Assembly (NCBI GenBank): GCA_028281785.1
Contig: JANQJG010000122.1
Location: 1-64,000, forward strand
Origin: Rhodospirillales bacterium
Lineage (GTDB): Bacteria > Pseudomonadota > Alphaproteobacteria > Rhodospirillales > Shumkoniaceae
Reading direction: 5' to 3'
Length of the DNA: 64,000 nt
Under the pieces are notes generated by a model. The model made no database searches. It was not told the origin of the DNA and was given only the letters and a program-made list of their open reading frames with translations. Made by a program: the position numbers and the translations under genes. Positions 11,417 through 26,817 of the stretch are shown piece after piece. Numbering within the stretch: the first letter of the stretch is position 1; every line of letters begins with the position of its first letter.

Positions 11417-11785
11417 TCAGATGCCGCCGGGCTGCTCCGGGTCCTCGACCGAGCGGTGGGTGTACTGCAGGCCGATGGTCGCGCCCTTGATGGGGCGGAG
11501 GAGGGCGACCGAACCGACGAAGATCAGCGGAATCCAAAGCAGGAAATGCAGCCACAGCGGGGGTGCTGCGGTCAGTTCCAGGATCATCGCGCAGGCGACG
11601 ATCACCGTGCCGAGGATGAAGGTGACGGCGACGGCCGGGCCGTCGCCCGCGTCATGGCCGCGAAAGGAGAGCCCGCAGACCGCGCAGCGGTCGACAACTC
11701 TCAAGGCCCCCTCGAACAGGCGCCCCTCGCCGCAACGCGGACAGCGTCCCCGCAGGCCGCGGCCAACGGGTGAGGAGGTGTTCAT
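11417..11785 (-). CDS. DUF983 zinc-ribbon membrane protein of the cox operon
   Basis: A 122-residue DUF983 protein. An N-terminal zinc ribbon (CPRCGEGRLFEG and CAVCGLSF) is followed by two membrane helices and the conserved RPIKGATIGLQY. DUF983 proteins are found at the end of aa3-oxidase operons in Alphaproteobacteria and are thought to help oxidase biogenesis, though the biochemical role is not settled. It is the last gene of coxB-coxA-ctaG-coxC-DUF983, 24 bases after coxC. No SURF1 gene follows, although one often accompanies these genes. Confidence 0.88.
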   Translation of the reverse strand: MNTSSPVGRGLRGRCPRCGEGRLFEGALRVVDRCAVCGLSFRGHDAGDGPAVAVTFILGTVIVACAMILELTAAPPLWLHFLLWIPLIFVGSVALLRPIKGATIGLQYTHRSVEDPEQPGGI

Positions 11786-11809: not shown

Positions 11810-12619
11810 TCAGCCCTGATAGCCGGCACTGCTCCACCAATAGATGGTGACGAACAGGAACAGCCAAACCACGTCGACGAAATGCCAGTACCAGGCGGCG
11901 GCCTCGAAACCCACATGCTTCTTCGCGGTGAAATGCCCGGCACGGGCGCGCAGCAGGCATACGACGAGGAAGCACACGCCGACGAACACGTGAAAACCGT
12001 GAAAGCCGGTCGCCATGTAAAAGGTCGAGGGATAGATCCCCTCGGTGAAGCCGAATGTGGCGATGCCGTACTCGTAGATCTGGAATCCGAGAAAGATAAT
12101 GCCGAGGATCACGGTGAGCACGAGTCCCCGCACGGTCTTCTTCTGGTCGCCCATGCGCAGGGCCTCATGGGCATAAGTTACGGTCGCGCCGGATGTCAGC
12201 AGAATCAGCGTGTTCAGGAAGGGGATCGTCCAGGCTTCGAGGGGGACGATTCCCTCGGGCGGCCAGGTCGGCGAGGCGACGGCGCTGATCCAAGGCACGC
12301 TGGCATGGAAATAGGCCCAGAAGAAGGCAAAGAAGAACATCACCTCGGAGGCGATGAAAAGGAGCATGCCCATCCGCAGGCCGTGGTTGACCGGCTCGGT
12401 ATGGGACTTCTGGATCACCGATTCGCGGACGACGTCGCGGCACCACCCAAAAAATGTCGCGAGGAGCAGAAGAAGGCCGGCCAGCAGCAGCCAGGGTACA
12501 TCCGCATGCATGTACCAGATTCCACCCACGGCGCAGACGAACGCGGAGATCGTGCCGACCAGCGGCCACGGGCTCGGGTCGACCATGTGCCAGGGATGAC
12601 TCTTCGTCTCGCTCACCAT
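11810..12619 (-). CDS. coxC: Cytochrome c oxidase subunit III
   Basis: A 269-residue seven-helix membrane protein of the COX3 family. It begins HPWHMVDPSPWPL, and contains FFAFFWAYFHAS, the substrate-channel glutamate region, and C-terminal ATGFHGFHVFVG and WYWHFVDVVWLFLF. Subunit III stabilises the catalytic core and the proton-uptake path. It sits between ctaG and DUF983 in the usual alphaproteobacterial order. Length and start are typical. Confidence 0.96.
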   Translation of the reverse strand: MVSETKSHPWHMVDPSPWPLVGTISAFVCAVGGIWYMHADVPWLLLAGLLLLLATFFGWCRDVVRESVIQKSHTEPVNHGLRMGMLLFIASEVMFFFAFFWAYFHASVPWISAVASPTWPPEGIVPLEAWTIPFLNTLILLTSGATVTYAHEALRMGDQKKTVRGLVLTVILGIIFLGFQIYEYGIATFGFTEGIYPSTFYMATGFHGFHVFVGVCFLVVCLLRARAGHFTAKKHVGFEAAAWYWHFVDVVWLFLFVTIYWWSSAGYQG

Positions 12620-12659: not shown

Positions 12660-13313
12660 TCACCGCGCGCCGGGAGTCAGGGCTGCCGCTTGGATCTCGA
12701 CGGCCGGGTGTTCCCCGTCCATTGACGCCGCGTTTTCGATCGCGTCCCCGTTCTCATCGGCCGGGAAGAACGTATAGGAGAGCGTGATCGTCGTCACCTC
12801 CTGGGTGTTCGGATCTTCTAGGATCGCCGGATCGACGAAGAAGGCCACCGGCATCGACATCTCCTTGCCGGGCTCCAGGCGCTGCTCGGTAAAGCAGAAG
12901 CATTCGATCTTGGCGAAGTAAGGCGCCGCCTTGTACGGCGTCACGTTGAACGTGGCCGTGCCGACGACGGACGTCTCCGAGACGTTGCGCGCCGTATAGT
13001 GAGTAAGGGTCTGCTCGCCAAGCGGGACCGTGATCTCCCGCTGACCGGGGCGGAACCGCCAGGGCAGGGCCGCATTGACGTTGGCGTCGAAGCGAACTTT
13101 GATCTTCGGCGCGTTCTCCGTCGGCGCCGCCAGCGGCACCTCGGCGATCCGCGGCGTACCGCCGTACCCCGTGATCTGGCAGAACAGGCGGTAAAGAGGA
13201 ACCGAGGCGAAGGCGAGGCCGACCATCCCGCAAACGAAGCCCGTCAGCATCAGCGCCGTGAACCGGTTGCGCTTCGCCTTTTTGTCTTGTGTCCGTGCTG
13301 CCGCGTTGGCCAT
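12660..13313 (-). CDS. ctaG: Cytochrome c oxidase assembly protein CtaG/Cox11 (CuB insertion)
   Basis: A 217-residue Cox11 protein: a short cytoplasmic tail, one membrane helix (residues ~20-42), then a periplasmic copper-binding domain with the CxC motif in IECFCFTEQ and SVPLYRLFCQITGYGG just after the helix. It delivers copper to the CuB site of subunit I. Directly downstream of coxA (12-base gap). Its presence shows that the aa3 oxidase here needs normal CuB loading, in contrast to the CuB-less homologue at 16736. Confidence 0.95.
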   Translation of the reverse strand: MANAAARTQDKKAKRNRFTALMLTGFVCGMVGLAFASVPLYRLFCQITGYGGTPRIAEVPLAAPTENAPKIKVRFDANVNAALPWRFRPGQREITVPLGEQTLTHYTARNVSETSVVGTATFNVTPYKAAPYFAKIECFCFTEQRLEPGKEMSMPVAFFVDPAILEDPNTQEVTTITLSYTFFPADENGDAIENAASMDGEHPAVEIQAAALTPGAR

Positions 13314-13325
13314 TCGATCTCTCTC

Positions 13326-15811
<2,486 letters not shown>

Positions 15812-16254: not shown

Positions 16255-16314
16255 GGCGGGGCGGGCGGTCGCCCGTTTCTCGACCAATCGTCGACTGCCG
16301 ACCGATTGTTGACC

Positions 16315-16749
16315 ATGCTTGAGGTCAGCGACCTTCCCCATGTGATCGCCGGGTTGAACGGGATCTCGACCCTGTGCTTGGCCGTGGGATACGTTTTCAT
16401 CCGTCTCGGCGACCGCTACCGCCATCGCGCGGCCATGCTCTCGGCGATGGCGGCGTCGGCGTTGTTCCTCGTGGTTTACGTGATCTACAAGGCCAATTCC
16501 GGCTTTGCCCAGTTCGGCGGCGAAGGGGTGATTCGGCCGATCTATTTCACCATCCTCATCGCCCACATCATCGGCGCCATCATCATCACGCCCATGGTGC
16601 CGGTCACGGTCCTCCGGGCGTTCAAGGGACGATTCGCGGCGCATCGGCGGCTGGCGCGCTGGACTTGGCCGCTATGGATGTATGTCGGGCTCTCTGGGGT
16701 GGTCGTCTATGTGATGGCCGTCCATCTATACCCCTATGGCCAAGTGTGA
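16315..16749 (+). CDS. DUF420 / CtaM-like membrane protein
   Basis: A 144-residue protein with four helices and conserved histidines near LPHVIAGLNGIS and ILIAHIIGAIII. Members of DUF420 (CtaM in Gram-positives) are required for maturation of heme-copper oxidases. Start ATG 16315 is preferred over a TTG nine bases earlier. The gene overlaps the start of the next one by 14 bases, so the two are probably coupled. Confidence 0.85.
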   Translation: MLEVSDLPHVIAGLNGISTLCLAVGYVFIRLGDRYRHRAAMLSAMAASALFLVVYVIYKANSGFAQFGGEGVIRPIYFTILIAHIIGAIIITPMVPVTVLRAFKGRFAAHRRLARWTWPLWMYVGLSGVVVYVMAVHLYPYGQV

Positions 16750-18163
16750 CGCCGTGAGCGAGGTCCTTCCGGCCTACCGCGACGCCATGCGCCATCCTTC
16801 GGCGCGTCGCGAGCTGTGGGGTTGGTGTGCGCTGGCCATCCTCTCCCTCGGCATCGCCGGCGCCTTCGCCGTGCTTCTGGCATGGTCGCGCACGCCCGGG
16901 CTGGGCGAGGCCGTGACCTGGCCGGCGGATTTCTTCCGCAAGGCGCTGGTCGTGCATGTCGTGTTCGCCTTCATCATCTGGTTTCTCGCGGTCTTCGGGG
17001 CGTTCCTGCAGCTGACCGCCTGGGCCGGCCGGGACGCCCCGCCACGGCTCAACGCCATCGGCGCTGCCGGCCTCCCCGTCGTCGCCGTCGCCTGCCTTCT
17101 GCTCTTGATTCCCGCGCTCCTCGACCGCGGCGTGCCGACCCTGAACAACTATGTCCCGGCCATCATCGACCCGCTCTTCTATCTGGGCTTGGCCCTGCTC
17201 GCGGGCGGGCTCTGTCTGCCGGTGCTGCGCCTGCTGCTGACCCCCGCCCCCCGGGGCGAACCTCACGAGCCCGTCTCCTTCGCCGTCTCCGGGGCCGCGG
17301 TCATCTTCCTCGTGGCGCTGATCTGCTTCGGCCTCGCCTTTCAGTTCCTTCGGCATCAGACGCCGTCCTTCCGGTTCAACGAGGAGCTGTTCTGGGGCGG
17401 CGGCCATATGATGCAGTTTCTCAGCACGACCCTGTTGATCGTGACCTGGGCGGTCCTGGCCCGAATCGCGCTGGGCCGCGAGATTGTCGGTCCCCGGTTG
17501 ATCAAGCTGGCGGCGGCGATTCTTATCCTCGCGGTTTTGCCGGCACCTTTCTTTTACTACCTTTTCCCGCCCTTCTCCGCGGACCAGATGAACGCCTTCA
17601 CCCGGCTGCAATGGATCCTGGGGGTGCCGACCCTGCTCGTCGTCCTTGCGGGAATCCGGGCGGTCGCGCGCCTTCCGGACACCCATCGCCCCCTGCCCTG
17701 GGGCCGGCCCGCCTTCCTTTGCCTCGTGCTCTCGATCGGCGTGTTCGGGCTCGGCGGCGTCCTCGGCCTGTTCATCGACGGCACCGATACGCGGACACCG
17801 GCTCACTATCACGGCGTTATCTCGGGCGTGACGCTGGCCTTCATGGGATTGTTCTACGAGGTCTTCCTGCCCTTGCTTCGGCGTGGTCTCGCCCGCGATC
17901 GGGTCGTTCGCGTTCAGCTTTGGCTGTTCGCCGTCGGGCAGTCGGTGGCCGTGCTCGGGCTGTTCTGGGCCGGCGGTTTCGGCGCCCCGCGAAAGACCGC
18001 CGGTGCCGAGCAGGGGCTCGAGGGCTTCGGCGCCATCGCCGGCATGGCCATGAACGGGTTGGGTGCCGCGGTGGCGGTGGCCGGGGGCGTGATGTTCATT
18101 TGGCTCGCGGGAAGGGCGATGTTCGGCCGCGCGTCCGAGGTGGCGTCGGCACTCTCGGAATGA
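16736..18163 (+). CDS. Heme-copper-oxidase subunit I-like protein lacking CuB histidines
   Basis: A 475-residue protein with about twelve helices. His74 (LVVHVVFAFIIW) aligns with the low-spin-heme ligand of subunit I. His224 (FWGGGHMMQFLSTT) aligns with the first CuB ligand. His357 and His359 (TPAHYHGVISG) align with the high- and low-spin heme ligands of CcoN/NorB-type proteins. Between residues 225 and 316 there is no histidine at all, so the HH pair of the CuB/FeB site is absent. It may bind two hemes but cannot form a normal binuclear centre. Context: DUF420 upstream (overlapping), a MoaD-like gene and heme A synthesis genes downstream. Possible roles are heme relay during oxidase assembly, a quinol/heme redox protein, or a sensor. 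Start ATG 16736; GTG 16754 is possible. Confidence 0.7.
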   Translation: MAKCDAVSEVLPAYRDAMRHPSARRELWGWCALAILSLGIAGAFAVLLAWSRTPGLGEAVTWPADFFRKALVVHVVFAFIIWFLAVFGAFLQLTAWAGRDAPPRLNAIGAAGLPVVAVACLLLLIPALLDRGVPTLNNYVPAIIDPLFYLGLALLAGGLCLPVLRLLLTPAPRGEPHEPVSFAVSGAAVIFLVALICFGLAFQFLRHQTPSFRFNEELFWGGGHMMQFLSTTLLIVTWAVLARIALGREIVGPRLIKLAAAILILAVLPAPFFYYLFPPFSADQMNAFTRLQWILGVPTLLVVLAGIRAVARLPDTHRPLPWGRPAFLCLVLSIGVFGLGGVLGLFIDGTDTRTPAHYHGVISGVTLAFMGLFYEVFLPLLRRGLARDRVVRVQLWLFAVGQSVAVLGLFWAGGFGAPRKTAGAEQGLEGFGAIAGMAMNGLGAAVAVAGGVMFIWLAGRAMFGRASEVASALSE

Positions 18164-18167
18164 GCCT

Positions 18168-18443
18168 TCAACCTCCCTCGATGGCGGCCATGATCTCCAG
18201 CTCGTCGCCGGGCGCGATGGTGTCATCGAGCTTGAGGATGTCGCCGCCCTTGAGAATGATCAGGCCGGAGCATGTGGCCGAGTCGGGCTTCATGCGGAAG
18301 AACTTCTGGAGACGCGGTTCTTCCGCCTGCAAGCGCAACAGGACCTCCCGGACCGGCGTCGCCGCCGCGAGATCCAGCTCCGTCGCGTCGCCCTTGATGG
18401 CGTCGAGCGGCGGATACCATTTAATGCGAGAAGATGTTGTCAT
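18168..18443 (-). CDS. MoaD/ThiS-like ubiquitin-fold sulfur carrier
   Basis: A 91-residue beta-grasp protein ending in AIEGG, the diglycine tail that is adenylated and thiocarboxylated in MoaD and ThiS. The body (ATPVREVLLRLQAEEPRLQKFF, IILKGGDILKLDDTIAPGDEL) fits MoaD. It stands alone on the minus strand between the oxidase-like gene (stop 4 bases away, convergent) and ctaA (divergent). No MoaE, MoaB or ThiF partner is adjacent, so it may serve Moco or W-pterin synthesis encoded elsewhere, or another sulfur-transfer pathway. Confidence 0.8.
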   Translation of the reverse strand: MTTSSRIKWYPPLDAIKGDATELDLAAATPVREVLLRLQAEEPRLQKFFRMKPDSATCSGLIILKGGDILKLDDTIAPGDELEIMAAIEGG

Positions 18444-18574
18444 GATGTTTCCTCACACTGCCCTCTGTTCTGATAGCGCAAATCACCGGCGGAGTCTTCT
18501 CCCCGCCGTCCCAGGTGGGATGCGCGCGGGGCGGCAAGTTATCTGGGCGGCCGGGCGCCGGGGACGGATCGTCC

Positions 18575-19717
18575 ATGGGCGCTGAGGTTGTCGAGACGCG
18601 CCATCGGCGGATCATCGCCGCCTGGCTCTTCGCGGTGGCGGCCATGGTGTTCGCCATGATCGTCTGGGGCGGCATTACCCGCCTGACCATCTCCGGCCTG
18701 TCGATGGTGGAGTGGCGCCCCTTGACGGGCTGGCTCCCGCCCTTGACGACGGTGGAGTGGGAGGTCGCCTTCGAGAAGTACAAGCAGTTCCCCGAGTTTC
18801 GCGAGCTCAACTTCAACATGACGCTCGCGGAGTTCAAGCAGATCTATTGGATCGAATATCTCCATCGCCTTTTGGGGCGCATTATCGGTGTCGTCTTCCT
18901 GCTGCCGGCCCTGTTTTTCCTGGCGAAGGGGTGGTTGGACAGGCCGATGCGGCGCCATGCCGTGATCCTCTTCGTGCTCGGCGGCCTTCAGGGCGCCCTC
19001 GGCTGGTACATGGTCAAGAGCGGCCTGGTCGACATCCCCGATGTCAGCCCTTACCGCCTGACCGCCCATCTCGCGCTTGCCTTCGTGATATACGGCTATC
19101 TGGTCTGGCTCGGCCTCCGTCTGTGGTGGCCCGCGCCTTTGGTGGCCAAGACGGCGAACCGGCCCTCGGACTTTCGGCGGTGCTGGCTCGGCCGGTATGC
19201 TTTCGCGCTGGTCTTTCTGGTCTTTCTCACCGCTATCTCGGGCGGTTTCGTGGCCGGCAACAACGCCGGTTTCGCCTACAACACCTTTCCGCTGATGGAC
19301 GGTCGGTGGATCCCGGAAGACCTGTATGGGCTGGAGCCGCCGATCCGCAGCGCCTTCGAGGAGGTGGCGACGGTGCAGTTCCATCATCGGGTATTGGCGA
19401 TGGTGGTCTTCCTCGCCGTCGCCGCGTTCTGGGCCGTCTCCGTCACCCTGCGCCTGACCCCACGGCAGCGGTTGGCGGTCCATGCGTTGGTCGCCATGAT
19501 GGTGATTCAGGTCGCCCTCGGCATCTCGACATTGCTCATGATCGTACCGATCTATCTGGCGGCCCCGCATCAGGCGGGGGCCGTTCTCCTGTTCACTTTC
19601 GCGTTGTGGGTGGCCTACGAGCTGCGATCCGGGGAAGAACACGGGGCAGCGCGTTCCCTTCCGGAGAAGGAGCGCGAGGACACGGTCGGCATCGCCGCTG
19701 TACAGCGACCCGGCTAG
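18575..19717 (+). CDS. ctaA: Heme A synthase
   Basis: A 380-residue COX15/CtaA membrane protein with eight helices that oxidises heme O to heme A for the aa3 oxidase. Heme-ligand histidines are in IEYLHRLLGR, VQFHHRVLAM and APHQAGAVLL, and WGGITRLTISGLSMVEW is the family N-terminal motif. Start ATG 18575 is preferred: the 20 extra codons from a GTG at 18515 lie before the first helix and look like a leader. Followed after 118 bases by ctaB. Confidence 0.93.
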   Translation: MGAEVVETRHRRIIAAWLFAVAAMVFAMIVWGGITRLTISGLSMVEWRPLTGWLPPLTTVEWEVAFEKYKQFPEFRELNFNMTLAEFKQIYWIEYLHRLLGRIIGVVFLLPALFFLAKGWLDRPMRRHAVILFVLGGLQGALGWYMVKSGLVDIPDVSPYRLTAHLALAFVIYGYLVWLGLRLWWPAPLVAKTANRPSDFRRCWLGRYAFALVFLVFLTAISGGFVAGNNAGFAYNTFPLMDGRWIPEDLYGLEPPIRSAFEEVATVQFHHRVLAMVVFLAVAAFWAVSVTLRLTPRQRLAVHALVAMMVIQVALGISTLLMIVPIYLAAPHQAGAVLLFTFALWVAYELRSGEEHGAARSLPEKEREDTVGIAAVQRPG

Positions 19718-19835
19718 GGCAGGGGAGGGCGTGGGAGCTTCTGCTCCTTGCCCACGCGCCGAACGACTATATATTGCCCGGCGGGACGGTGTTGGGAAAC
19801 CGCATGGATATGGTCTGAAGAAGGAAAGCAAACGC

Positions 19836-20783
19836 GTGTCGCGAACAACGTCCAAAATCCTCCCCGCGTTTCCCGCCAAATCCGCCCGTTCCCGGAAGGA
19901 CGCCCGCGAGGGGCCGCGTTTTCGGGCCGTCGACTACGCCATCATCCTCAAGCCCAACGTCATGTCGCTGGTGGTCTTCACGGCCCTGGTCGGGCTGCTG
20001 CTCGCGCCGGGGGAGATCGCGTGGTGGCGGGCGGTTGTGGCGGTCCTGTGCATCGCGCTGGGCGCCGGTGCGGCGGGGGCGATCAACATGTGGTACGACC
20101 GCGACATCGACTGCGAGATGCGCCGCACCCGCGAACGGCCGATCCCCGCCGGCCGCATGCCCCCCCGAATCGCCCTGTTCTACGGCACGGGACTCGCGCT
20201 CGTCTCGATCGCGGCGATGGCTGCCGTCGTCCACCCTCTGGCTGCGGCGCTCCTTGCGACGACGCTTCTCTACTACGTCGTGATCTACACGGTCTGGCTG
20301 AAACGCCGGACGCCCCAGAACATCGTCATCGGCGGCGCGTCCGGGGCGCTGCCGCCGGTCATCGGCTGGGCGTCGGTAACGGGCGATGTGGGGCCGGAAG
20401 CGCTGGCCCTGTTTCTCATCATCTTCCTGTGGACGCCGCCGCATTCCTGGGCCCTGGCCCTGTTTCGGCGGCAGGACTATCTCCGCGCCAAGGTGCCGAT
20501 GCTGCCCGTCGTCGCCGGCGAGCGGGCGACTCGCAACCAGATCCTGCTCTACACCCTGCTTCTGATCCCGGCGAGCCTTCTGCCGGTCGCCCTCGGTATG
20601 TCGGGCGCCGTTTACGCCGTGGCCGCCCTCGTTCTCGGAGGCCTGTTCCTGCGCCACGCGCTTCGCGTCTGGCGGGACGAAACCGATCGCTCCGCGCGGC
20701 CCATGTTCGGCTATTCGATCCTCTATCTGTTCCTGATCTTCGTCTTCCTGCTCGCCGATTCGCTGATCGTTCCCCTCATATAG
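19836..20783 (+). CDS. ctaB: Protoheme IX farnesyltransferase (heme O synthase)
   Basis: A 315-residue UbiA-family membrane prenyltransferase that adds the farnesyl group to heme b. The prenyl-diphosphate-binding motif is INMWYDRDID, and the second family motif is YTVWLKRRTPQNIVIGG; about eight helices follow. Start: GTG 19836 has AAGGAA upstream, while an earlier GTG at 19731 would add an unlikely leader. It ends 1 base before the convergent aldo/keto reductase. Together with ctaA it makes heme A for the coxA product. Confidence 0.93.
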   Translation: MSRTTSKILPAFPAKSARSRKDAREGPRFRAVDYAIILKPNVMSLVVFTALVGLLLAPGEIAWWRAVVAVLCIALGAGAAGAINMWYDRDIDCEMRRTRERPIPAGRMPPRIALFYGTGLALVSIAAMAAVVHPLAAALLATTLLYYVVIYTVWLKRRTPQNIVIGGASGALPPVIGWASVTGDVGPEALALFLIIFLWTPPHSWALALFRRQDYLRAKVPMLPVVAGERATRNQILLYTLLLIPASLLPVALGMSGAVYAVAALVLGGLFLRHALRVWRDETDRSARPMFGYSILYLFLIFVFLLADSLIVPLI

Positions 20784-22977: not shown

Positions 22978-25900
22978 TCAGGCGGCGGCGTCGAGGGTTT
23001 GCCGGATGACCCGGCCGAGTTCGCTGGGTTCGACGGGCTTGCGCACGATTTCGCTGAATCCCACCGCCTGTGTGGCCTGCTCCGAGACGGGCGGTGCGTA
23101 GCCCGTGCACAGGATGATCGGAATATCGGGCCGGATCTCCGACAGGTGCTGGGCCAGATCCTCGCCCGTCATGCCCGGCATGATCTGATCGGTGACCACC
23201 AGGTCGAACTCCTCCGGCATGGACTTGAACAGGGCGAGGGCGGCATTGGCACTGGTCAACGCTTCGATCCGATAGCCGAAATGCTCCAGATAGCTGCCCA
23301 TGGATTGCACGACCATGCGCTCGTCATCGACCAGCAGAATACGCTCGGTTCCCGAGAAGGAGGTTTTGTCTTTGGGGGCGGCCGGCTCCCGGGTCGGGCG
23401 TGCCGCAGGCAGGAGGATCGTGAAGGTGGATCCCTTGCCCGGCTCACTCTCGACCTGAAGCCCGCCGCCGTGGTCCTGGACGATCCCGTGGACGGCGGCA
23501 AGGCCGAGGCCGGTTCCCGAGCCCACGGGCTTGGTCGTGAAAAAGGGGTCGAAAACCCGGCTCAAGGTGTAGCTATCCATGCCACAGCCGGTATCCGAGA
23601 CGCGAAGGCGGACATACCGCCCGGGCGGAAGGTCATAGCCGGCGGCCGCGATTCCATTCCGGCTCTTCAACGAATCGACCGTGACGTCGATCACCCCCGC
23701 ATTGGTCCCGATGGCATCGACGGCGTTGGCGCAGAGATTCAGGAGCACTTGGTGAATCTGCGTGGCATCCGCCATGACCGCTCCCGATTTGGGCGGGGCG
23801 CTCCACCGCAGTCGAATGGTCGTCGGCGTGGAGGCGTGGACCAGCTTCATCGCCTCGTCGACGATCGTATGCATGTTGACGGGCTCGAGGACCGCCTCCT
23901 TGCGGCGGCTGAAGGCGAGCAGTTGCTGGACGAGATCCCGGGCACGATCCGAGGCGCCCATGATTTGATCGAGGTTGAAGCGCAGGTCGCTTTCCGCCGG
24001 CAGTTTCTCGATGGCGATTTGGCAGTGTCCGAGGATTCCAGTCAGGATGTTGTTGAAGTCGTGGGCGACGCCCCCGGCCAGGGTTCCCACGGCCTCGAGC
24101 TTCTGGGCGTGGCGCAGCTGGTCATTCACCAGCCGTTTACCCGTGGTGTCCTCGGCGATCGCCAGGAAATTGAGGATTCGTCCGCCGTCGTCACGAATCG
24201 GCGAGAGAGCCACCGACGACCAATAGAGCTCGCCGTTCTTGCGTCGATTTCGAAGCTCGCCATGCCATTCGCGGCCGGCGCGGACGGCCTTCCAGACCCT
24301 TTCGTGCTGGGTCGGGTCCGTTACCTCGCAATTGAGGAAGGCCGGGATCTGGCCCACCGCTTCGTCGAGGGCGTAGCCCGTTTTTTGCGCGTATTTCGTG
24401 TTCGCATATTCAATCCGGCCCCGGGGGTCCGTAATGACGATGGCGGCCGGGCTCTGTTCGACCGCTGTGGAGAGCTTGCGCAGGCTCTCCTCCGTTCGTT
24501 TCTGCTCCGTGATATTGTGGCAGACGATCAGCGTGCCGCCCTCGGGCGTTCCATGCTCATGAACCGCAATCCAGCCGCTGGATCTCCGAATCTCGAAGCC
24601 CTCTCCGGGGCTCCGGCGCCTTTCGAGTCGCTTGCGGAGCCAACCTTCCGGATCCGGCTCGGCTTCGGGAATGAAACCGGCCTCGATCTCCCGCCGAAGG
24701 AGATCCTCATATCTCAACCCCTGCTCAAGGCTTTTGCGGGTTTCCGGCGAAAGCAGCGCCCGGTACTGGCCGTTGCACACAACCAGGCGGTCCTCGGGAT
24801 CGAACAGGGCGAAGGCCACGGGCACGGTTTCAATGGCCTGCAGGAACCGCTGCTGGGTCAGGGTTTCACGTTCTTTCGCCTGGACCTCGGCCGTAACGTC
24901 CGATCCAGTGCCGCGATAGCCCATAAATCGCCCGTCGGCATCCTGCCTTGGCCTACCGCTCAACCGCAGGGCGCGAAGCTGTCCCTGGCAATCACGCCAT
25001 GCACATTGGGCATCCCGGAAGGGGCGCCGCGCGGCGAGATCTTCGGGCCGGCCGGCCCAGTCCGCGGGCAGTCCATGGCTGGACGCGATCTCTTCCGGCT
25101 TTCGGCCGAGCACGTCATTCGGGTCGAGGTTCAGCGCATCGAATAGGCGTTCGGATACATAGGTGAACCTATGCTGGGCATCGGTCTCCCACATCCAGTC
25201 GGAGCTTGCCTCCACGAGATCGCGGAAGCGCTCCTCGCTCTGTCGCAGGGCCTCCTCGCTTTCCACGTGCCGCGACATGTCGACGATGACACCCCTGAAT
25301 CCCATCAGCTTGCCGTCTCGAAGTATCGGAACCGAGGTGGTCAGCACGGGAAAGGTGCTGCCGTCCTTTCGCAGGGCCGTAAATGCCCTGTCGTCGGGTA
25401 TCATTCCCCTGGACAACTTGGCCATGTTTTCGCGGACATGCTCGCGATCTTCCGGAACGACGAGATCCGTTCCTCTCAGACCCCGCCGGAAGTCCTCCTC
25501 GCTGTAGCCGGTGAGCTCGCAGCCTTTATGGTTCACGAAGGTCAGCACGCCCTCGGCGTTCATCTCGTAGACGATCTCGGGGAGCAGCTCCGAAAGCTCC
25601 CGGAACCTGAATTCGCTCTCCCTGAGCGCTTCCTCGGCCCGTTTGCGCTCCGTGATGTCCAGAACCTGCGTGATCACAAGATCCGGCCGATCTTGGGACT
25701 TCCGCACCAGCGACGTGGTGATGGAGACCCAGATCGTGCGTCCGTCCTTGCGGACATACCGTTTCTCCGCTTGAACGTAGTCGACTTCGCCGGCCCTCAC
25801 CTTCTCGGCCCGCTTTCTTGTGGCCTCGCGGTCGTCCGGATGGGTGACGTCGTACATCGTCATCGAGAGGAGCTCGTCCTCGCTGTATCCCAGCATCTCC

Positions 25901-26817
25901 TGGAAAGCCGGGTTGACGATATGGAATCGGCCATTGCGACCGACGAGGACGGAGCCCACGGCGGTGCTTTCGAAGACTTTGCGGAAACGCTCCTCGCTTT
26001 CCCGGAGCTCCTGCTCACGAACCTTGAGGGACGTGATGTCCGTGGCGATCTGCGCCACGCCGCCCCCGGTCGTCCTGTGTTCGCTTAAACGCCACCAGGT
26101 GCCTCCGGGGAAGGGTCGATCGACGGGGCCCTCGCGTTGCCAGAACTTGTGCATGCGTTCCCGGACCCAGTCCTCGATCGCGCCCATGATGCCCGGGGTA
26201 AGACCTTGTTCGGCCCGTGACTTGAGCAGCTCCTCGAACTTGATTCCGGGGACCAGCAGGTCCGCCGATTCACGGTAGAGCTGTTCCCAGGCGCCGTTGA
26301 ACGTGACGAGCTGGCCGTTCTTGTCGAACAAGGCGAAAGGATCGTCGATGCTGTCCAACGCGTCCTTTAGAAGCGCCTCCGTCTTTTCGGCCCTTGACTT
26401 TGCTTCACGCAGATCATCCAGAACCTTCGTGCGCTGCCTCCGGATCCTCGCCTCGCGCAGGCCCCGTTCTAGGGTAGGCAGCAGCCACGACATATTGTGC
26501 TTTTGAACGAAACCGTTCGCCCCCGCCTTGACCAGGGAGGCGACCGTCGGCGCGTCTTCTGAATCACAAAGAAGAATGAACGGGATCTCGCGGCCGTCCT
26601 CCGCCATGATCCCGAGAGCCGCTTCAGCGCCGAAGCGTTTCAAACTGAGGTTGGAGATCACCGCGTCCCAGTCCTCGGCCAGCGCGTTGCGCATCCCGCG
26701 CCCGGAAGCGATGCGTTTGATCGAAGGCTTATATCCGCAGGCGTGCAATTCCTGGCGAAGGGCCGGAACGTCGTTTTCGGATTGGCCCACGAACAATATG
26801 CGGATCGGCTCCGCCAT
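22978..26817 (-). CDS. Hybrid sensor histidine kinase: pseudo-receiver, six PAS domains, kinase, receiver
   Basis: A 1279-residue soluble sensor with no membrane helix. Residues 1-~125 form a receiver-like domain in which the usual phospho-Asp is Asn56 (DAVISNLSL) and the acidic pair is lost (FVGQSEND), so it should not be phosphorylated. Six PAS domains follow, each opening with a segment such as SEERFRKVFESTAVG or SEERFRDLVEASSDW. The kinase core has the H-box GGVAHDFNNILTGI and ATP-lid motifs (LCANAVDAIG, VSDTGCGM, GTGLGLAAV). The C-terminal receiver keeps its Asp (LVVTDQIMPGMTG). It probably senses redox state, oxygen or small ligands in the cytoplasm. It stands alone between the reductases and cheW; the output partner is not visible. 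Confidence 0.9.
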   Translation of the reverse strand: MAEPIRILFVGQSENDVPALRQELHACGYKPSIKRIASGRGMRNALAEDWDAVISNLSLKRFGAEAALGIMAEDGREIPFILLCDSEDAPTVASLVKAGANGFVQKHNMSWLLPTLERGLREARIRRQRTKVLDDLREAKSRAEKTEALLKDALDSIDDPFALFDKNGQLVTFNGAWEQLYRESADLLVPGIKFEELLKSRAEQGLTPGIMGAIEDWVRERMHKFWQREGPVDRPFPGGTWWRLSEHRTTGGGVAQIATDITSLKVREQELRESEERFRKVFESTAVGSVLVGRNGRFHIVNPAFQEMLGYSEDELLSMTMYDVTHPDDREATRKRAEKVRAGEVDYVQAEKRYVRKDGRTIWVSITTSLVRKSQDRPDLVITQVLDITERKRAEEALRESEFRFRELSELLPEIVYEMNAEGVLTFVNHKGCELTGYSEEDFRRGLRGTDLVVPEDREHVRENMAKLSRGMIPDDRAFTALRKDGSTFPVLTTSVPILRDGKLMGFRGVIVDMSRHVESEEALRQSEERFRDLVEASSDWMWETDAQHRFTYVSERLFDALNLDPNDVLGRKPEEIASSHGLPADWAGRPEDLAARRPFRDAQCAWRDCQGQLRALRLSGRPRQDADGRFMGYRGTGSDVTAEVQAKERETLTQQRFLQAIETVPVAFALFDPEDRLVVCNGQYRALLSPETRKSLEQGLRYEDLLRREIEAGFIPEAEPDPEGWLRKRLERRRSPGEGFEIRRSSGWIAVHEHGTPEGGTLIVCHNITEQKRTEESLRKLSTAVEQSPAAIVITDPRGRIEYANTKYAQKTGYALDEAVGQIPAFLNCEVTDPTQHERVWKAVRAGREWHGELRNRRKNGELYWSSVALSPIRDDGGRILNFLAIAEDTTGKRLVNDQLRHAQKLEAVGTLAGGVAHDFNNILTGILGHCQIAIEKLPAESDLRFNLDQIMGASDRARDLVQQLLAFSRRKEAVLEPVNMHTIVDEAMKLVHASTPTTIRLRWSAPPKSGAVMADATQIHQVLLNLCANAVDAIGTNAGVIDVTVDSLKSRNGIAAAGYDLPPGRYVRLRVSDTGCGMDSYTLSRVFDPFFTTKPVGSGTGLGLAAVHGIVQDHGGGLQVESEPGKGSTFTILLPAARPTREPAAPKDKTSFSGTERILLVDDERMVVQSMGSYLEHFGYRIEALTSANAALALFKSMPEEFDLVVTDQIMPGMTGEDLAQHLSEIRPDIPIILCTGYAPPVSEQATQAVGFSEIVRKPVEPSELGRVIRQTLDAAA

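Follow-up and report, generated by a model that had tools for sequence, protein, structure and literature searches.

It is still an open question by which route subunit I of heme-copper oxidases (HCOs) receives heme a, heme a3 and CuB, and SURF1 is absent from many bacteria. This heme A insertion factor takes part in subunit I maturation, the same process that we propose for the protein described here, but it belongs to a different protein family. Active aa3 and caa3 oxidases also need CtaM; its absence does not stop heme a and heme a3 from forming, and a role in copper handling or related to CuB has recently been proposed (PMC4958251, PMC9145763, PMC13344008). One of these reports places CtaM at a step after heme insertion (PMC9145763). 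CtaM of Bacillus and Staphylococcus belongs to the DUF420 family, as does the partner gene of the protein studied here. In the accessible accounts from Firmicutes it is described alone and an HCO-like partner is not mentioned, whereas the DUF420 gene in our window is paired with a gene encoding an HCO subunit I homologue (HCO-like).

We compared HCO-like to the oxidases and NO reductases that it most resembles. Its best match by both profile and fold is subunit I of the Thermus thermophilus ba3 oxidase (CbaA; PDB 1XME/4G71), with which it shares a 12-TM fold, the heme ligand positions, one CuB histidine and the heme-propionate residues. HCO-like is ~90 residues shorter and lies outside the ba3 clade. 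The best single-sequence paralogues in the genomes analyzed are eNOR-like CuA nitric oxide reductases (loci L020-L023, L048, L068 and L103). They have in common with HCO-like the helix VI His, a Gln at H+3 and an Asn at H+6, and here, too, genes for a CuA subunit and for heme O/A synthases lie nearby. Unlike HCO-like, the eNOR-like proteins keep a His-His pair and a Gln at H+4, are ~570 aa long, and form a separate clade (98/97) from that of HCO-like (100/100). The A1-type CoxA encoded in the window belongs to the same superfamily and has the same heme ligands (18.5% identity), but its CuB site is complete.

The window, by which we mean the whole stretch of 64,000 nucleotides analyzed (Rhodospirillales bacterium, contig JANQJG010000122.1, positions 1 to 64,000), encodes HCO-like on the forward strand at 16736-18163 (475 aa; ATG at 16736, stop codon ending at 18163). 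Its start is overlapped by 14 bp by the end of the gene for a DUF420/CtaM homologue (16306-16749, +; 147 aa, four TM helices), a coupling that had been pointed out in an earlier note on this DNA. The same note had placed the gene beside ctaA and ctaB, and both indeed follow on the forward strand after one small intervening minus-strand gene. The longest ORF of ctaA (heme A synthase; PF02628, E=3.4e-108) spans 18515-19717, with a true start maybe slightly downstream, and that of ctaB (heme O synthase; PF01040, E=2.3e-66) spans 19731-20783. The intervening gene (18168-18443, -) encodes a ThiS/MoaD-like small protein (PF02597, E=3.1e-05) and is not part of the conserved cluster. The opposite strand carries a complete A1-type cox operon, with coxB (subunit II, 14966-15811, -; assigned by homologues and the CuA motif in its translation), coxA (complete subunit I with a His-His pair by alignment, 13326-14936, -; PF00115, E=8.2e-164), ctaG/cox11 (CuB assembly, 12660-13313, -; PF04442, E=6.7e-58) and coxC (subunit III, 11810-12619, -; PF00510, E=1e-92). 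A SURF1 gene, usual in A1 operons, was found neither at this operon nor in the whole genome. By eye, we also noted a small Cys-rich, DUF983-like membrane protein gene after coxC (11417-11785, -).

HCO-like matches PF00115 (COX1) with an E-value of 1.3e-24 and a bit score well above the cut-off, though far below that of CoxA from the window. It misses the CtaD/CoxA family TIGR02891, reaching 20.1 bits at a cut-off of 670.75 bits, and no better family name was found for it in NCBIfam. A search of the single sequence against solved structures gave no match, and a profile was required: when built from 75 family members and compared with Thermus ba3 subunit I, it matched the latter over its full length (E~1e-17). 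PF00115 was matched by 74 of these 75 members, and none of the 75 matched any other Pfam family, including NnrS. The AlphaFold2 model of HCO-like (pLDDT 94.2, pTM 0.94) contains 12 long helices, and ba3 is its best fold match in the PDB (TMq 0.77, E=6e-9).

The retained and lost ligands can be read from the profile alignment with ba3, for which we use the conventional T. thermophilus (Tth) residue numbers of the structure. The earlier note had stated that both heme positions and one CuB ligand are kept, and their register is confirmed. H74 (codon 16955-16957, +) aligns with the low-spin heme ligand Tth H72, H224 (17405-17407, +) with the CuB ligand H233, and within the H357-Y358-H359 segment (17804-17812, +) the two histidines align with the high-spin heme ligand H384 and the second low-spin ligand H386, respectively. 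R419-K420 (17990-17995, +) takes the place of the heme-propionate pair Tth R449-R450. The CuB pair Tth H282-H283, in contrast, aligns with F273-Y274 (17552-17557, +), and the cross-linked Tth Y237 with F228. The same two columns are His-His in CoxA from the window and in three eNOR-like paralogues. Since the only histidines of HCO-like are at positions 20, 74, 177, 207, 224, 317, 357 and 359, the claim that residues 225-316 are free of histidine is exact. At position 273, all 75 family members have F/L/I/V/Y; at position 274, 51 of the 75 have Y and the others mostly F/T/S. No His was counted at either position. Position 228 is F in 62 of 75 members.

HCO-like thus keeps only H224 of the three CuB histidines of A, B or C oxygen reductases, and it lacks two of the three non-heme-metal histidines of cNOR, qNOR, eNOR and CuANOR. 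The active-site Tyr that in A and B oxygen reductases follows the first CuB His by four residues is missing in the window protein. An HH pair displaced along the sequence, or metal ligands of another kind, are ruled out by the profile alignment to A-type, ba3 and eNOR-like subunits together with the residue counts, so that the binuclear center lacks its CuB pair as the earlier note had concluded. The assignment of HCO-like as a 12-helix HCO subunit I homologue without a binuclear center is fully supported. The ligands that are kept lead us to expect a bis-His low-spin heme in the protein, along with a second heme held by H357. To our knowledge, every known CuB or FeB center requires three histidines. 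No CuB or FeB is expected in HCO-like, because it has lost two of these ligands without any substitute. The protein belongs to the HCO superfamily, and no described family agrees with it in every respect tested. Our literature search, which covered few subscription papers and no bioRxiv preprints, returned neither a CuB-less HCO family nor a DUF420-linked subunit I.

We next consider how far these features extend. Of the 99 rows in our alignment, 77 come from contigs of named genomes, a few of which are included twice, and 22 from relatives with whole genomes. Every row has H74, H224, H357, H359, W30, G223, P355 and Y358. R419 and K420 are found in 98 of 98 rows and Q227 in 97 of 99, and no row contains an aligned HH pair. 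A sequencing, frameshift or assembly artefact is ruled out by these homologues. The named genome collection holds at least 576 HCO-like relatives, mainly from Rhodospirillales-like MAGs, and the fetched records include Hyphomicrobium, Bradyrhizobium, Methylocystaceae, Nitrospinota and Deltaproteobacteria. In an IQ-TREE phylogeny the family forms one side of a 100/100 branch, with A-type subunits, Thermus ba3 and the eNOR-like paralogues outside. Loss of the CuB pair is therefore a trait of a widespread, conserved family and not a single oddity, and the family, judged by its alignment and tree, is monophyletic and under clear constraint.

Gene order was compared in 80 fetched HCO-like loci, many of them on short contigs. 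DUF420 lies immediately upstream in 68 of 80, so that the synteny proposed for survey in the earlier note holds widely, and in 67 of these 68 cases the DUF420 frame ends within ~120 bp of the start of the HCO-like domain. ctaB is directly downstream in 56 of 80 loci, and an A1- or A2-type cox subunit I gene is present on the fetched stretch in 49 of 80. The operons that the cluster adjoins are of the A1 type, which is the case in the window, of the A2 type or, at a few loci (L048, L068, L103), eNOR-like. We also observed a single 636-codon open frame that covers both DUF420 and HCO-like in Defluviicoccus sp. SSA4 (L065:8446-10353). This fusion is a hint only and maybe an assembly error, because the sequence holds four undetermined residues.

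The DUF420 protein of the window (PF04238, E=1.9e-40) was modeled with four helices at a pLDDT of 94.7, and its best PDB matches are COX3 chains (TMq ~0.63). The E-value of this fold match is weak (0.09), and its TM-scores are well above those of the next group of hits. A profile comparison with hhalign aligned DUF420 to the four C-terminal COX3 helices over 125 columns (score 35.4, E=1e-4, probability 56%); 30 block-shuffled profiles scored at most 20.3, and other targets, CtaA included, or reversed profiles at most 20.7. A likeness to CtaA was considered as well, and hhalign against CtaA gave nothing. The modeled fold and the profile match together suggest that DUF420/CtaM is distantly related to oxidase subunit III and not to CtaA. 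This result runs counter to a published proposal in which CtaA descends from DUF420 (PMC8239418) and is in line with a doubt that has been raised about that ancestry (PMC12808453). Such a relation would give CtaM a possible structural origin and would argue against DUF420 as the ancestor of heme A synthase. H12, H87 and H113 of DUF420 are invariant in the alignment of the loci.

We determined the co-occurrence of these genes in 40 relatives from the order of the window (31 families) and in a second sample of 241 genomes drawn from the class. Of the 40 relatives, 4 have SURF1 and 35 have CtaA, while DUF420 and HCO-like are each found in 29; the corresponding numbers in the class sample, in the order SURF1, CtaA, DUF420 and HCO-like, are 187, 199, 3 (over the cut-off) and 4. 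DUF420 is present in 28 of the 29 HCO-like carriers among the 40 relatives, and the only sampled HCO-like carrier without CtaA is an 81%-complete genome. SURF1 is rare where HCO-like is common: among genomes with CtaA, it is found in 4 of 31 HCO-like carriers versus 184 of 201 non-carriers. This anticorrelation, strong overall, is not significant within the order alone (Fisher p=0.17). It was rejected as proof of a replacement and is kept only as support, because it is confounded by phylogeny. One family outside the order (f107) contains both arrangements and fits the pattern, with the cluster and no SURF1 in G196, and SURF1 and no cluster in G115 and G261. Exceptions are G008 and G016, in which SURF1 accompanies the cluster, and G080 and G120, in which HCO-like and SURF1 occur together and DUF420 is missing.

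Taken together, we propose with a probability of about one half that HCO-like is a CuB-less diheme "pseudo-oxidase" that works with CtaM to mature heme-A oxidases. This role is favored because HCO-like is coupled to CtaM and embedded with ctaB, ctaA and cox genes, and because SURF1 is scarce. The earlier note had suggested either an assembly protein or a diheme redox protein; a redox-competent assembly factor is now the preferred, still tentative, combination of the two. Heme occupancy, a physical complex with CtaM and the assembly role itself are inferred, and electron transfer would be the likeliest chemistry of HCO-like in subunit I maturation. In the mechanism that we envisage, HCO-like would pair with the subunit-III-like CtaM in the inner membrane, with a bis-His low-spin heme at H74/H359 and a second heme on H357, whose distal pocket would be lined by H224, Q227 and Y274 and contain no copper. 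HCO-like may take heme O/A from CtaB/CtaA or pass electrons through its hemes. In this way it may supply nascent CoxA with heme or with reduced copper, and CtaM would contact CoxA in a subunit-III-like manner. The clients would be CuB-containing heme-A oxidases of the A1 and A2 types and probably eNOR-like enzymes; CoxA from the window is a likely one. A conserved CuB-less subunit I look-alike tied to CtaM and heme A synthesis is a candidate for oxidase maturation.

Further genomes speak against an assembly role. G003, which belongs to the family of the window, has DUF420-ctaA-ctaB beside an A1 cox operon (L116), with neither HCO-like nor SURF1; HCO-like is therefore not essential for an A1 oxidase. 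We note this genome as a natural deletion of the HCO-like gene. G012 and G036, judged 98-100% complete, carry the HCO-like cluster, and no A-type oxidase was detected in them when enzymes were classed from the length and score of the match and from frame size. In these two genomes the client may be the eNOR-like enzyme. Carriage of HCO-like and of the eNOR-like enzyme is weakly associated among the 40 relatives (p=0.03).

A third gene bears on the function of the cluster. In ten loci (L015-L018, L064, L070, L100, L102, L106, L108) the HCO-like gene is directly followed by a gene for a small, subunit-II-like CuA protein, consisting of an N-terminal hydrophobic segment that would serve as a membrane anchor and a cupredoxin domain (L015:6295-6768, L016:6200-6820, L017:4523-4984, L018:5342-6823, L064:5624-6115, L070:10301-10906, L100:7511-7969, L102:10265-10825, L108:10310-10831). 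Its CuA motif is intact (C-x3-C-x3-H-x2-M plus an upstream His), as in CSEYCGxxHxxM or CTQYCGIEHNKM. The loci of this kind that were placed in the tree fall in deep branches of the HCO-like family, and the gene was not found after HCO-like in the cluster of the window or in most other clusters. The ancestral set was presumably a subunit-III-like, a CuB-less subunit-I-like and a CuA-containing subunit-II-like protein. It resembles an oxidase without CuB, because DUF420 is subunit-III-like and the CuA gene is found in deep branches. The CuA gene suggests that an electron-transfer role of HCO-like is at least ancestral, and in lineages that have it electrons could enter from cytochrome c.

These deep-branching clusters suit a redox enzyme no less well than an assembly factor. 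The main rival reading, which we hold to be possible and less probable than the maturation role, is that HCO-like is the catalytic subunit of an independent complex with the subunit-II-like CuA protein and DUF420, in which electrons pass from CuA over the low-spin heme to a copper-free heme that reduces NO, O2 or peroxide or hands them on to a membrane partner. The anchored CuA protein, the likeness of DUF420 to subunit III, the conserved H224, Q227 and usually Y274 lining the would-be active site, and the clusters in G012 and G036 without an A-type oxidase all point this way. On the other hand, the window cluster and most others, having no CuA gene, have no known donor site, an independent enzyme would not usually be linked so tightly to ctaB, ctaA and cox, as HCO-like is beside A1 and A2 oxidases alike, and the catalysis would have to proceed with two of the three histidines of every known CuB or FeB center missing. 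If HCO-like did work in a redox complex of this kind, the heme-copper superfamily would have a member that operates with neither a CuB nor an FeB site.

The maturation role and the CuA partner can be joined in a further and still more tentative reading, against which we see the odds as standing clearly. DUF420, HCO-like and, ancestrally, the CuA protein would then form a three-subunit CuB-less complex, a new functional class of HCO whose copper-free diheme core feeds electrons (e.g. for Cu(II) reduction) into the metallation of other oxidases. If this were true, an oxidase paralogue would have turned into a machine that builds oxidases.

An unlikely alternative is that HCO-like only holds or transfers heme A (or O), as a subunit I mimic that moves it from CtaA/CtaB to CoxA and replaces SURF1, with no redox function. 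Retention of the heme ligands and propionate contacts at a lost catalytic copper site would suit such a carrier, as would the near-complete co-occurrence with CtaA and the rarity of SURF1 among carriers. A transient carrier is, however, unlikely to be an integral 12-TM protein that buries two hemes, a CuA partner as found in deep branches is unnecessary for carrying heme, and the CtaM phenotype lies after heme insertion (PMC9145763). That HCO-like is a vestige, or an oxidase in decay that no longer has a function, is hardly credible, since the loss of the catalytic copper ligands is accompanied by heme ligands and an R-K pair that are invariant down to 37% identity, and by intact ORFs that have retained their operon position in many families, a conservation pattern that contradicts decay.

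Two minor observations concern other genes. Many relatives encode an eNOR-like subunit I of ~570 aa with a GHSSQQ motif and a Gln at the Tyr position (L020:3896-5602, L021:3833-5611, L022:3908-5611, L023:3776-5530, L117:4170-5867). ctaB, and in some genomes ctaA too, is located near these genes, and by its sequence features the enzyme is possibly a heme O/A-type NO reductase in the order of the window. In the window itself, we noted by eye a very large multi-PAS hybrid sensor kinase of 1279 aa (22978-26817, -).
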